From assembly GCF_014652415.1 (NCBI RefSeq), contig NZ_BMYT01000004.1, forward strand, positions 336,127-400,126: 64,000 nucleotides of DNA, read 5' to 3'. The number at the start of each line of letters is the position of its first letter. The stretch's first letter is position 1. Below are positions 6,609 through 11,696 of this stretch, in pieces. Origin of the DNA: Affinundibacterium macrobrachii. Lineage in GTDB: Bacteria; Pseudomonadota; Gammaproteobacteria; Burkholderiales; Burkholderiaceae_D. The notes beneath the pieces were generated by a model. The model worked only from the letters and a program-made list of their open reading frames with translations, had not been told where the DNA came from and did no database searches. A program made the translations under genes and the position numbers.

Positions 6609-7574
6609 TTAGGCATTTGCCTCAAATTCTTCGTCGCGCAACACCTCAGGCTGCAAAGTGATGTGATCGATGCCATGTTTTTCAAGCAGCATTTTTTTAA
6701 TGCTCTCTAAAATCCTTGGCCACGCGCTCAAGTCATCGATCTCTAAATGGCCAATTAATGCGGGTTGGCCTGGGGACATATCCCAAACATGCAAGTCGTG
6801 TACTGATGCGACGCCAGGTGTTGTTTCCAGATCGGTGCCAATTTGTACGTAATCAATGTGATGAGGAACACCCTTCATCAAGAAGTGAAATGATTCTTTT
6901 AGAACTCCCATGGTTGACTTCAAGATGAGCAGCGAAACGAAGATCGATAGTATCGGATCAATTGGCATCCAAGCTGTAAAGTAAATAATCGCGCCCGATA
7001 CGATCGCTGCTGCGGACCCCAATAAATCTCCCATGACATGAATTAATGCTGCACGTGTGTTCATACTATCTTTGTCGTGAGATAGAACCCATGCTACAAC
7101 GATGTTAATTGCTAGGCCAATCGCGGCAACAATCATGACGACTTTACCTTGTACTGCCTCTGGCGATTGAAGGCGTTGGATTGCTTCAATGCTAATCCAA
7201 GCAACCACGCCCAACATCACCAAGCCGTTGACGAACGCGGCCAAGGCTTCGGATCGTCCAAATCCAAATGTATGTTTGGCTGTTGGTGGTCGTTTCGCAA
7301 TTAATTGTGCTAGTAGGGCGAGTCCAAGCGCAGCAGAATCGGTGACCATATGGCCAGCATCTGAAATCAAGGCCAGAGAATTTGATAAGAAACCAAAGAC
7401 AACTTCGACGCCTGCGAAAAATAATGTTAGACCCAATGCCCACGCTAAAATCGATTGGCTGCGATCCGCAAAGTAATGTTGATGTTCCGCATCGCCATGA
7501 CGGTGAGCGTGTAAATGTGCGCTTTTGGTGTTTTGGGTGCCTACTTTGTTGGGCGTGTGTGCATCGTGTGGCAT
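6609..7574 (-). CDS. Cation diffusion facilitator (CzcD/ZitB-type zinc efflux)
   Basis: The 321-residue inner-membrane protein is a CDF transporter exporting Zn2+ or similar divalent ions by proton antiport. A His-rich N-terminal tail (HLHAHRHGDAEHQHYF) precedes about six membrane helices. The two metal-site signatures are DAGHMVTD in helix 2 and HVMGD in helix 5. The C-terminal cytoplasmic domain (from about 235) carries the CDF dimer fold with VHDLHVWDM and GHLEI. Metal choice cannot be read with certainty; the HxxxD/DxxxD pattern is typical of Zn/Cd/Co exporters. It appears to be a single-gene unit. Confidence 0.92.
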   Translation of the reverse strand: MPHDAHTPNKVGTQNTKSAHLHAHRHGDAEHQHYFADRSQSILAWALGLTLFFAGVEVVFGFLSNSLALISDAGHMVTDSAALGLALLAQLIAKRPPTAKHTFGFGRSEALAAFVNGLVMLGVVAWISIEAIQRLQSPEAVQGKVVMIVAAIGLAINIVVAWVLSHDKDSMNTRAALIHVMGDLLGSAAAIVSGAIIYFTAWMPIDPILSIFVSLLILKSTMGVLKESFHFLMKGVPHHIDYVQIGTDLETTPGVASVHDLHVWDMSPGQPALIGHLEIDDLSAWPRILESIKKMLLEKHGIDHITLQPEVLRDEEFEANA

Positions 7575-7737
7575 GGCGAGTTATTTCTATAGATTCGATT
7601 TGGTATTGTAAGGTATTTGTGTTTTTCAGCGCATGTATCTTCGATTGGGTTTGCTCTGATTGGCAGGAATTCAGTCATGTTACGGTATTTTTGTAAAATG
7701 AATTACATCAGGCTTTTTTGAAATCGAGAAAAAGCAC

Positions 7738-7766
7738 TTTACGATTTAGAGGTTGTTTGCTATAGT
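7738..7766 (+). promoter_or_regulatory. Sigma-70-type promoter of tRNA-Val (and possibly thrS)
   Basis: TTTACG at 7738-7743 and TATAGT at 7761-7766 are separated by 17 bases, and transcription would start about 5-10 bases before the tRNA. The same transcript could continue through the leader into thrS. Confidence 0.6.
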
Positions 7767-7777
7767 CTTACCTCTTC

Positions 7778-7854
7778 GGGCGGTTAGTTCAGCTGGTTAG
7801 AATACTTGGTCGACATCCAAGGGGTCGGGGATTCGAATTCCTCACCGCCCACCA
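7778..7854 (+). tRNA. tRNA-Val (anticodon GAC), sequence-deviant
   Basis: The 77-base cloverleaf has a perfect 7-bp acceptor stem (7778-7784 with 7844-7850), an encoded CCA end (7852-7854), D-loop GG, a 5-bp anticodon stem and anticodon GAC at 7812-7814. Several near-universal positions are altered: position 33 is C (7811) instead of U, the T-stem closing pair 53-61 is A-U instead of G-C, and the D-stem is GTTC/GAAT with a G-U end pair. It sits directly upstream of thrS, where betaproteobacteria commonly have tRNA-Val(GAC). It may still work, may be degrading, or may have another role in the thrS leader. Confidence 0.85.
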
Positions 7855-7898
7855 GAATTTTAGAAATAGTAGTACTTTGTAAGAGCGAGAAAGGCATC

Positions 7899-7949
7899 AT
7901 GGTTATGACACCGCGAACTACGATCACATTCCTTTGTGAGCGACGCTAG
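7899..7949 (+). CDS. Threonine-rich leader peptide upstream of thrS (candidate)
   Basis: A 16-codon open frame starts at ATG 7899 (a second in-frame ATG at 7905) after GAGAAAGG and ends at TAG 7947-7949. It encodes MVMTPRTTITFLCERR, with four Thr codons (ACA, ACT, ACG, ACA) within seven codons. The coding region lies inside the 5' arm and loop of a terminator-like hairpin, and a second terminator follows before thrS. This is the layout of a ribosome-mediated attenuator responding to charged tRNA-Thr, which suits a threonyl-tRNA synthetase gene. Translation is not shown. The ordering of alternative RNA structures is my inference. Confidence 0.6.
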   Translation: MVMTPRTTITFLCERR

Positions 7950-7963
7950 TCGAGGTGTTTTTT
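7908..7963 (+). terminator. Terminator-like hairpin overlapping the leader peptide
   Basis: ACACC (7908-7912) pairs with GGTGT (7954-7958), closing a long imperfect hairpin. The inner CGATCACA/TGTGAGCG arm (7921-7928 with 7935-7942) is nearly complementary, and TTTTTT follows at 7958-7963. A ribosome paused on the Thr codons would cover the 5' arm and prevent folding. Confidence 0.6.
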
Positions 7964-7984
7964 CGTCTTTAAGTACGATAGATA

Positions 7985-8009
7985 AACGCGGCTAGTCCGC
8001 GTTTTTTTT
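7985..8009 (+). terminator. Rho-independent terminator or attenuator before thrS
   Basis: Perfect 7-bp GC-rich stem (7985-7991 with 7997-8003), loop CTAGT, and eight T residues. It lies between the tRNA-Val/leader and thrS with no obvious promoter after it, so it most likely acts as an attenuator rather than an operon end. Confidence 0.85.
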
Positions 8010-8077
8010 CGTCTATTGGTTTCGTTTTTTTAATTTTTTTTGTTTTTTCTTTGGCTTAGGCCCGTATGGAGATGAAT

Positions 8078-9985
8078 ATGATTTCAATTCGCTTGCCCGA
8101 TGGTTCGCAACGACAATTTGAGTCCGCTGTCACAGTGGCGCAAGTCGCCGCCAGTATCGGCACGGGCTTGGCAAAAGCAGCCTTGGCTGGCAAGGTCAAC
8201 GGTAAGTTGGTCGATACATCGCACTTGATCGAAGCAGATGCTGATTTGGCGATTGTGACAGATAAAGATGCGGATGGCTTGGAAGTGATTCGTCACTCCA
8301 CTGCGCATTTGTTGGCCTATGCTGTAAAAGAGTTGTTCCCAGAAGCGCAAGTGACGATTGGTCCTGTGATTGAGAATGGTTTTTACTATGATTTCTCATA
8401 CAAGCGCCCATTTACACCAGACGATTTAGTTGCTATCGAAAAGAAAATGGCTGAATTGGCGAAAAAGGACGAGCAAGTTGTGCGTAAAGTTGTGCCGCGT
8501 GATGACGCCGTCGCTTACTTCAAATCGATTGGCGAAAACTATAAAGCAGAAATCATTGAGTCGATTCCAGCAGATCAAGACGTATCGCTCTACACAGAAG
8601 GTAACTTCACAGATTTGTGCCGTGGCCCTCACGTTCCATCAACAGGTAAATTGAAAGTATTCAAGTTGATGAAGTTGGCGGGTGCTTACTGGCGTGGTGA
8701 CTCCAAAAACGAGATGCTGCAACGTGTCTACGGCACAGCGTTTGCGAAGAAAGAGGATCAAGAGCAATACTTGCATATGCTGGAAGAAGCGGAAAAGCGC
8801 GACCACCGTAAACTGGGTAAAGCTTTGGATTTGTTCCACTTCCAAGACGAAGCTCCAGGCTTGATCTTCTGGCATCCAAAAGGTTGGACTGTGTGGCAAC
8901 AAGTTGAACAATACATGCGTAAAGTTTACCAAGATTGTGGCTACCAAGAAGTCAAAGCACCGCAAATTTTGGACCGTACGCTCTGGGAAAAAACGGGCCA
9001 CTGGGAGAACTATCGCGAAAATATGTTCAGTACCGAGTCTGAAAATCGTAATTACGCATTGAAGCCGATGAACTGCCCAGGGCATGTGCAGATTTTTAAT
9101 TCAAATATGCGCAGCTATCGCGAATTGCCATTGCGCTACGGTGAGTTCGGCCAATGTCATCGCAACGAACCTTCAGGTGCATTACACGGCATTATGCGCG
9201 TGCGCGGCTTTACGCAAGATGATGGCCATATTTTCTGTACCGAAGATCAAATTCAAGACGAGGTCATGGCTTTCCATCCGCAAGCGATGAAAGTATATGA
9301 TGATTTTGGTTTCGAAAATATCCAAATCAAGATTGCCTTGCGTCCAGATAATCGTATTGGTTCCGATGAAATTTGGGATAAAGCGGAAGATACTTTGCGT
9401 GCGGCATTGCGCAACTGCGGAATGACATGGGAGGAGTTGCCAGGTGAGGGCGCATTCTACGGCCCTAAGATTGAATACCATTTGAAGGATAGCTTGGGTC
9501 GTCCATGGCAGGTTGGTACGATGCAAGTTGACTTTTCTATGCCTGGACGACTAGGGGCAGAGTACGTCTCTGACGACAATTCACGTAAAGTGCCTGTGAT
9601 GTTACATCGTGCGATTGTTGGTTCAATGGAAAGATTTATTGGTATTTTGATTGAGAATCATGCGGGTGCTTTACCAACTTGGTTGGCTCCTGTACAAGTT
9701 GCGGTATTAAATATCTCTGAATCTCAGGCTGATTATGCGAAATCTGTGGCTGAAAACCTGAAAAAACAAGGGTTTAGAGTGCATACAGATTTGCGTAATG
9801 AGAAGATTACCTATAAAATACGCGAACATTCCATGCAAAAGTTGCCTTATATCATCGTAGTCGGTGATAAAGAACGGGATGCAAATACAGTGGCTGTGCG
9901 TACGCGCGGTAATCTGGATCTGGGTGTAATGACTCAGGAAGCCTTTTTGTATCGTCTTAAAAACGACTTGGAAACCAAGGCTTAA
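8078..9985 (+). CDS. thrS: Threonyl-tRNA synthetase
   Basis: ThrRS charges tRNA-Thr and edits mischarged Ser-tRNA-Thr. The 635-residue class II enzyme has a TGS domain (1-60), the editing domain with HSTAH (His73, His77), and a catalytic core with zinc ligands in MNCPGH, DDGHIFC and VMLHRAIVG. The C-terminal anticodon-binding domain runs from about 535. In-frame starts at 8066 and 8072 exist. I choose ATG 8078 because GGAG at 8068-8071 is then correctly spaced and the family start MISIRLPDG is reproduced. It heads thrS-infC-rpmI-rplT-pheS-pheT-ihfA and is probably controlled by the leader peptide and terminators upstream. Confidence 0.97.
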
Positions 9986-10044
9986 CCAGCTTTTGCCCGC
10001 AGAAATGCATCGCTTGTTGATTTAATTTTTTGAAGGAAACTGCA

Positions 10045-10566
10045 ATAGCTACCGAAAAGTCACATCGTATCAACGGTGAAATTACTGCGCCAGAAGTGCG
10101 CTTGTCAGGCGTTGATAATGAGCCGTTGGGCATCGTAAAACTGGGGGAAGCCTTTCGCTTAGCTGAAGAGGCTGAAGTGGATTTGGTGGAAATCGCGCCA
10201 ACAGCGCAACCACCCGTTTGCCGATTGATGGATTACGGCAAGTTCAAATACCAAGAGCAGAAGAAGGCGCATGAAGCCAAGCTGAAGCAAAAGGTTATTT
10301 TGGTGAAGGAAGTAAAATTCCGTCCAGGTACGGATGACGGTGATTACAACATTAAGTTGCGTAATCTCGTGAAGTTCTTGGAAGACGGCGATAAAACCAA
10401 AATTACTTTGCGTTTCCGTGGTCGTGAAATGGCTCACCAAGAAATTGGTATGCGTATGTTAGAACGCTTGAAGGTCGATCTGGATCCGTACGGTCAAGTT
10501 GAACAGTTTCCGAAGATGGAAGGACGCCAGATGGTTATGATTCTGGCGCCGAAAAAGAAAAAATGA
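10045..10566 (+). CDS. infC: Translation initiation factor IF-3
   Basis: IF-3 binds the 30S subunit, prevents premature 50S joining and checks the start codon. The 173-residue product has the N domain ([45 protein letters not shown]), a Lys-rich linker and the C domain ([21 protein letters not shown] to PKMEGRQM). No ATG fits the family start. ATA at 10045, placed eight bases after AAGGAA, gives the expected N terminus. A non-AUG start discriminated against by IF-3 itself is the known basis of infC autoregulation in E. coli (AUU there). TTG at 10030 is the alternative, adding five residues, but it overlaps that ribosome-binding site. Confidence 0.93.
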
Positions 10567-11349: not shown

Positions 11350-11696
11350 GTAGTCATAGTCTGTAGTAGCGTTTTTTGCGTAGCTACAACATGAGCGGGG
11401 CAGAGGTTCAATCCTGTGCCCCGTTTGTTTTTGTAGGGCTCAAACAAAATGATTCGGCGATAGCTATCGAATTATTTTGTGTGAGTCTTTTGGAATTTAG
11501 CTTCTTCCTTTTCAATAGGAAGGTTGTGGTGGGTTGCAGTCGATTAATTAGAAGCATAATTCTTGACCTTGGCCCATCTCCACTCTAGTCGTCCTTCTGA
11601 AGAAGGGGGAGGGCAAGTGGTGCGGCTAAGCTATTCTCATCGTGTGCAACGAAGACTCGATATTTTCTATCATCCACATGAAGTGGGAAAAATCGC
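11350..11696 (+). other. rplT-pheS intergenic region
   Basis: This 347-base gap holds the terminator at 11396-11432, a perfect 12-base palindrome CGATAGCTATCG at 11458-11469, and a Phe-rich but startless reading frame around 11494-11520. I find no convincing gene. TTGACC near 11564 may belong to a pheS promoter, but no good -10 accompanies it. Confidence 0.5.
11396..11432 (+). terminator. Terminator or attenuator between rplT and pheS
   Basis: CGGGGCA (11396-11402) pairs with TGCCCCG (11417-11423), followed by TTTGTTTTTT. It would reduce or end read-through from the ribosomal protein genes into pheST. Confidence 0.85.

Follow-up and report, generated by a model that had tools for sequence, protein, structure and literature searches.

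A probable threonine-codon leader peptide and transcription attenuator between a tRNA-Val gene and thrS in Burkholderiales

The window, i.e. the whole stretch of 64,000 nucleotides of Affinundibacterium macrobrachii DNA that was analysed, carries a tRNA-Val gene followed by thrS, and the 211 bases between the two genes hold a short reading frame, its Shine-Dalgarno sequence and two hairpins (Table 1). A consensus scan of positions 7000-10400 gave three promoter-like sites on the + strand, with 4.8 expected from shuffled sequences, and all three lie upstream of the tRNA gene; therefore tRNA-Val, leader and thrS are probably co-transcribed as one transcript. ATG 8078, with GGAG at 8068-8071 in front of it, is probably the start of thrS rather than 8066, and the closest named relatives of ThrS are those of Undibacterium fentianense and one Oxalobacteraceae MAG, at 99% each, which places the genome with the Undibacterium kind within the Oxalobacteraceae. 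The D arm of the tRNA-Val, TTAGTTCAGCTGGTTAGAATAC, presumably resembles that of tRNA-Asp, and the gene is possibly a tRNA recruited through an anticodon change; some genomes of the same genus (L115, L116) have a different tRNA-Val(GAC) at the equal place.

Table 1. Positions in the window of the features discussed in the text
Feature	Position	Strand	Basis or remark
Promoter-like site TTTACG-17-TATAGT, TG before -10	7738..7766	+	Consensus scan; ahead of tRNA-Val
tRNA-Val (anticodon GAC)	7778..7854	+	ARAGORN, Rfam tRNA; directly upstream of the putative attenuator
Shine-Dalgarno sequence GAGAAAGG	7887..7894	+	Sequence; 10 nt before ATG 7905
Leader ORF MTPRTTITFLCERR, stop TAG 7947	7905..7949	+	Sequence, conservation, codon pattern
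Segment 1 CCGCGAACT, codons 3-5	7911..7919	+	Predicted 1:2 partner of segment 2; swap-test support weak
Segment 2 GCTAGTCGAGG	7945..7955	+	Contains the leader stop codon; alternative partners segment 1 or segment 3
Antiterminator 2:3, GCTAGTCG (7945-7952) with CGGCTAGT (7989-7996), plus inner helix from the U-tract	7945..7996	+	Folding, swap test
Intrinsic terminator 3:4, AAACGCGG-CTAGT-CCGCGTTT plus T run	7984..8009	+	Compensatory changes
thrS	8066..9985	+	Putative regulated gene; probable true start ATG 8078

An earlier note on this DNA, made from the letters alone, had described a frame of 16 codons that follows a Shine-Dalgarno sequence and has four Thr codons within seven positions, and all of this is found in the sequence as described: the frame (MVMTPRTTITFLCERR) runs from ATG 7899 to the stop TAG at 7947-7949 and has Thr at its codons 4, 7, 8 and 10. 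The frame exists at that length, but the conserved leader is shorter. Many relatives have CTG, TTG, CCG or ACG in place of the first ATG (7899), whereas GGTTATGACACCGCGAAC is retained in nearly all rows of a 68-row alignment in which the letters upstream vary; therefore, we take the leader to be the 14 codons from the second ATG, 7905, with Thr codons ACA 7908, ACT 7917, ACG 7920 and ACA 7926. AAGGC of the Shine-Dalgarno region is at least 90% conserved in the same 68 sequences. When the 300 nt before thrS were dinucleotide-shuffled, a short ORF opening with ATG, GTG or TTG reached four Thr in seven codons in 4 of 2000 shuffles, four Thr in eight codons in 7 of 2000, and three Thr in six codons in 40 of 2000. 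The Thr-rich frame is unusual by itself, and it is far beyond chance once compared across relatives.

The ThrS search had a match in 40 of 43 genomes of the same genus and gave 80 named loci. All 30 of the same-genus loci examined, out of 40 same-genus places and with the genome of the window included, carry the leader. By motif, the leader is present in 94 of the 111 loci that have an upstream region, the window among them and some being near-copies of one genome (the window and L001, L006 and L033), and a terminator follows it in all 94. The 17 loci where the motif is absent include Polynucleobacter, several MAGs and two Oxalobacteraceae (L052, L069). In the Polynucleobacter loci and the MAG loci that look like them (L074-L077, L088-L090, L092, L104) the leader is lost, and most of them retain tRNA-Val and, ahead of thrS, a hairpin that ends in a T-run; the distance from tRNA to thrS in L092 is merely 32 bases. 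Massilia eurypsychrophila (L058:2237-2445) has a long GC-rich, hairpin-forming insert between the leader stop and the terminator, which are 120 nt apart there. The earlier note had staked its reading on conservation in relatives, and the frame, its Thr codons, the terminator and the complementarity that makes the antiterminator are all kept.

Across the order, thrS was matched in 393 of 399 genomes. A rule for the leader was applied to 105 upstream regions, 80 of them hand-chosen from the listed thrS places and 25 from loci of the order-wide thrS search, and it found a leader in 50, each with a terminator after it. Three of these 50 hits are false or read in the wrong frame, namely L178, L203 and an alternative ORF of L155, a locus that has MTPRTFPSLI as well; contig ends shorten the regions L163, L168, L199 and L202. 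The rule found no leader in the sampled loci of families f12, f13, f14, f17, f24, f25, f28, f29, f35 and f42, nor in seven f31 loci; by eye, RTAT can be read in a short ORF of the f13 locus, and other f31 genomes do have the leader. A covariance model of the element, run over the order with strict filters and at most 8 candidates scored per genome, matched 83 of the 399 genomes with 84 hits. For 49 of these hits a thrS place was listed for comparison, and 45 of the 49 are immediately in front of thrS; six of the other 35 hits are beside thrS in the loci retrieved. At all 30 hit loci that were retrieved, thrS is present. A plasmid search with the tRNA-Val-thrS gap gave no match.

With a tRNA gene just upstream, and with the leaderless Polynucleobacter-type loci mostly keeping both tRNA-Val and a hairpin with a T run, one could argue that the hairpin before thrS is a mere terminator of tRNA-Val, that the short frame is coincidental and that thrS is expressed separately. 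The codons of the frame argue otherwise. Codons 2 to 5 are nearly invariant in sequence. Codon 6 is outside the counted core of the 1:2 pairing, although the window itself folds with this codon inside a longer stem. Among 44 distinct Oxalobacteraceae leaders, 42 have Thr at codon 6, spelled ACG in 18 and ACC, ACA and ACT in 8 each, i.e. Thr is retained despite free synonymous change. In the ten distinct leaders of the Burkholderia type, codon 6 is Leu or Phe and Thr stands at codons 7 (10 leaders), 9 (9) and 10 (8). Thr also stands out among the residues. In a non-redundant set of 153 of the 216 regions, each at least 150 nt long, we counted ORFs that start with ATG, are 8-25 codons long and have the same residue four times within eight codons, and found 60 for Thr, 3 for Ala and 2 for Arg, with 1 for Thr on the other strand; the regions being orthologous, the 60 reflect conservation plus Thr specificity and not 60 independent events. 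Thirty rounds of shuffling the 153 regions gave ORFs of the Thr type in 0.4 regions on average and in no more than 2 in any round. If GTG and TTG starts are also allowed, the counts in the 153 regions become 61 for Thr, 13 for Ala and 8 for Phe, and the Thr excess is less clean. Two further points against a plain tRNA terminator are that the leader persists at five loci (L066, L067, L071, L072, L073) with no ARAGORN tRNA in the 500 nt examined, and that the complementarity of segments 2 and 3 is retained. It was rejected on the excess of Thr over other residues in the 153 regions, and we regard it as very unlikely.

The leaders of other families are dissimilar yet Thr-rich (MFRTTTTTGK, MVFRTTTTRISK, MSFRTTTTGSLNLA, MNTNTTRTTTTRHT), with Arg-Thr kept in most. 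A further type begins with MTPRT or MTPLT and has two Thr codons, as in MTPRTFLLKR, MTPRTQPSPES and MTPLTCRDVD; families with MTPRT and just two Thr codons are f1 (L151), f3, f9 and f38. Since MTPRT is retained where the remainder has drifted, and some of these leaders have two Thr only, it can be hypothesized that the signal is a programmed pause, caused by the nascent peptide MTPRT or by slow decoding of CCG-CGA, and not the charging of Thr-tRNA, the more so as the 1:2 pairing, which would give an RNA-level reason for the retained letters, is itself weakly supported. However, several families have no Pro, have Arg elsewhere and have more Thr codons (e.g., MFRTTTTTGK and MNTNTTRTTTTRHT), and we give the pause even less credence than the plain terminator.

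The earlier note had also seen a terminator-like hairpin overlapping the frame and a strong intrinsic terminator after it. The first hairpin is there, at 7908-7958, with -17.7 kcal/mol, and runs into six T; the second, 7984-8004 followed by eight T (8002-8009), is present as well, although "strong" is generous for a stem of -9.8 kcal/mol. An intrinsic terminator between the leader and the gene is what a ribosome-mediated attenuator calls for, and that of thrS is borne out by the alignment. Pairs were counted in 68 of 83 distinct elements, leaving aside L058 with its long insert, the divergent L078, L079, L080, L095 and L108, and near-copies. In these 68 sequences the terminator helix is paired in 96.9% of cells, and three of its pairs are changed on both sides, in 16 cells; its covariation score was reached by 0 of 500 shuffles and its pair count by 21 of 500. 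The antiterminator core is paired in 87.5% of cells and the 1:2 core in 86.5%, with at most 49.2% and 53.2%, respectively, when the arms are slid along the same 68 sequences. In fixed columns of this alignment neither the antiterminator nor the 1:2 hairpin has any two-sided pair change, and the covariation score of the antiterminator is below that of every shuffle. The register of the pairing shifts in Massilia, Cupriavidus and Burkholderia: UCGAGG is opposite CCUCGA in Burkholderia, and GCUAG-A-CGCG is opposite CGCG-C-CUGGU in Massilia, the assignments being made partly by eye.

The pairings were further compared in a swap test, where partners are exchanged between labels with two-way centring and at most four sequences per label; the labels split the Oxalobacteraceae into five, so that 20 of the 66 sequences are from that family and the p values of the test come out too small, and L178, L203 and the alternative ORF of L155 were removed beforehand. 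For 2:3, the native pair beats the median swap in 54 of 66 sequences, with a mean centred difference of -2.25 kcal/mol. The corresponding values are 44 of 66 and -1.51 kcal/mol for 1:2, and 43 of 66 and -0.21 kcal/mol for 1:3, a pairing that is not expected and served as the control. Against shuffled partners, the mean z of the native pair is -1.50 for 2:3, -0.90 for 1:2 and -0.92 for 1:3. The 2:3 pairing is clearly above the 1:3 control and the 1:2 pairing barely so, i.e. 1:2 is weakly supported. An earlier swap table at the level of clades was mixed, some swaps being stabler than the native pair in the Cupriavidus, Massilia-type and Undibacterium rows; in the clade-level comparison of native with shuffled segment 3, the mean z is -2.16 over 73 elements and 53 of the 73 are below -1.5, with merely -0.31 for Cupriavidus and -0.91 for the Massilia type.

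The antiterminator, with a stability of -15.2 kcal/mol by itself, overlaps the terminator, and complementarity, swap test and fold model all point to a 2:3 pairing that excludes it. In many relatives the antiterminator also takes in a T-run 3' of segment 2, whose partner is the A-rich 5' terminator arm (CUUUUUC opposite GAAAAAG). Thus, the hairpin that the earlier note took for a first terminator is better read as part of the switch, namely the 1:2 pair of a 1:2 / 2:3 / 3:4 attenuator, and with this amendment the comparison supports the attenuator that the note had proposed. In the window, hairpin 7908-7958 with its six T could also terminate on its own if nothing translates.

Taken together, a short ORF with a Shine-Dalgarno sequence and cognate codons has the makings of an attenuator at the sequence level, and the comparison of relatives adds the conserved Thr codons of the leader, the terminator and the complementarity between segments 2 and 3. 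We consider it very probable that the element senses threonyl-tRNA and controls thrS as a ribosome-mediated transcription attenuator of the classical kind known from trp, his and pheST. Translation of the leader, stalling, read-through and dependence on charging are what we infer from this arrangement. RNA polymerase would start before tRNA-Val and continue into the leader, where a ribosome would begin at ATG 7905. With Thr-tRNA charged, the ribosome would reach the stop TAG (7947) and cover segment 2, leaving segment 3 to pair with segment 4, and the terminator would stop transcription. With Thr-tRNA uncharged, it would stall at ACT 7917 or ACG 7920 (or ACA 7926) and cover segment 1; segment 2 would then be free to pair with segment 3, and the polymerase would proceed into thrS.

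In a fold model of 128 distinct elements, the ribosome was assumed to mask the 15 nt before and the 12 nt after the first base of its A-site codon. Before the 3' arm of the terminator is made, the mean number of antiterminator pairs is 9.3 with the ribosome stalled at the first regulatory Thr codon, 3.5 with the ribosome at the stop codon and 5.9 with no ribosome. The stalled state has more of these pairs than the stop state in 108 of the 128 elements (equal in 16, fewer in 4) and more than the ribosome-free state in 93 (equal in 25, fewer in 10); f20, f48, f49 and "other beta" show little or no contrast between stalled and stop. Within the limits of such a model, the contrast between a stalled ribosome and one that has finished fits the needs of a classical attenuator. 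In the window the values are 10.9 stalled, 0.5 at the stop and 10.7 without a ribosome. The ribosome-free window is therefore not clearly terminating at equilibrium: as long as the 3' arm is lacking, its predicted fold favours the antiterminator, so that termination at the basal level, with no translation, would have to rely on kinetics. Once made, the full terminator wins in every state of the model, as expected given a kinetic choice.

The conserved nucleotides could also be explained by a protein, ThrRS or another, that binds them, with operator mimicry as in E. coli thrS. Such a site would account for GGTTATGACACCGCGAACT being almost identical letter for letter across several families, and E. 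coli ThrRS regulates its own gene according to PMC2965389. For comparison, we hand-chose 40 of 111 Gammaproteobacteria with thrS outside the order, each from another family (L248-L287). By rule, a hairpin like the anticodon arm of tRNA-Thr (YUNGU loop; e.g., CUCGUA, UUGGUA) lies at most 90 nt before thrS in 22 of the 40, L250 being doubtful; GTGGTCCCTCGTATCGACCAC in L256 is an example, and by analogy with the E. coli case these hairpins may be operators. In contrast, 150 of the 153 Burkholderiales regions have no such hairpin within 90 nt of thrS. Moreover, the conserved codons make up an arm of the putative 1:2 pairing, and some leaders differ just there (MRPPTT, MFRTTTT). A hairpin of the E. 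coli type was rejected, as the window has none and the three found by rule in the 153 regions are unconvincing; we find a protein site the least credible of the explanations weighed here.

Returning to the attenuator, Thr-rich ATG ORFs with three Thr in six codons occur in 80 of the 153 Burkholderiales regions vs. 1 of the 40 comparators. Across the genomes sampled, the boundary of one order separates the operator-like hairpin from the Thr leader, with some families having neither, so that an exchange of one regulatory mechanism for another can be tested directly. It is tempting to speculate, and we offer this as a tentative idea, that Burkholderiales swapped the autoregulatory ThrRS operator of other Gammaproteobacteria for direct sensing of threonyl-tRNA by the ribosome, that one conserved Thr codon, codon 5 at the end of segment 1, is enough in several families, and that the shared terminator ends the tRNA-Val transcript, so that the threonine supply would also shape the 3' ends of tRNA-Val.

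Attenuation by leader peptides is a textbook mechanism. In E. coli, pheST (with its leader pheM) and thrLABC likewise have a leader peptide with cognate codons and alternative antiterminator and terminator hairpins, and pheST is likewise a synthetase operon; the present element differs in that its target is thrS, its leader lies between a tRNA gene and a synthetase gene, and no Rfam leader family matches it at threshold. In Rfam 15, the element has no family match at threshold, either in the window or in the seven relatives scanned, the best non-tRNA matches in the window having E of 0.82 or worse, so many genomes probably carry the leader peptide unannotated. In L041, one of the seven relatives, the element is covered by a Leu_leader match that scores 27.4 bits, whereas the gathering score is 50. 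The window also has a pheM-like ORF with a GTG start before pheS (11481-11588), with four Phe in six codons (FSFFLF); as a conserved leader it was rejected, being found in 1 of 71 loci. In the rplT-pheS gap (11393-11433) a GC-rich hairpin with T behind it (GAGCGGGGCAGAGG...TGCCCCGTTT) looks like a terminator inside the operon, and it recurs in several relatives.

The control of thrS itself is known in other forms. The E. coli operator, an anticodon-like hairpin bound by ThrRS, has the same target gene and differs in being translational and bound by a protein. The T-box of thrS in Gram-positive bacteria similarly senses uncharged tRNA-Thr through a choice between terminator and antiterminator, but it binds the tRNA directly and has no leader ORF; it was rejected here, as no T-box covariance model of Rfam matches in the window. 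A search of one open-licence literature library found no proposal of a Thr leader for thrS of Burkholderiales; outside the scope of that library is Lopatovskaya et al. 2010 (Mol Biol 44:128), which is said to treat aminoacyl-tRNA operons and would be the likeliest earlier prediction. The earlier note knew of no description of the mechanism for thrS, and on this point it has to be corrected: in PMC8079986, a Thr leader (thrL) before thrS of Streptomyces lividans is proposed as an attenuator from RNA-seq. As in the present case, thrL is described there as a short ORF with Thr codons before thrS; it differs in its peptide (MKRVRPFLETTPGFVPAR), with two Thr, in its leaderless transcription start and in its actinobacterial host, and its authors report a hairpin with no U-rich stretch, i.e. 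no clear terminator (PMC8079986). Thus a Thr leader for thrS has already been proposed as an idea, and the candidate leader of the Burkholderiales would be a widespread addition to the classical attenuators. One essential synthetase gene appears to have come under three unlike bacterial controls: a T-box, a protein operator and a leader peptide.
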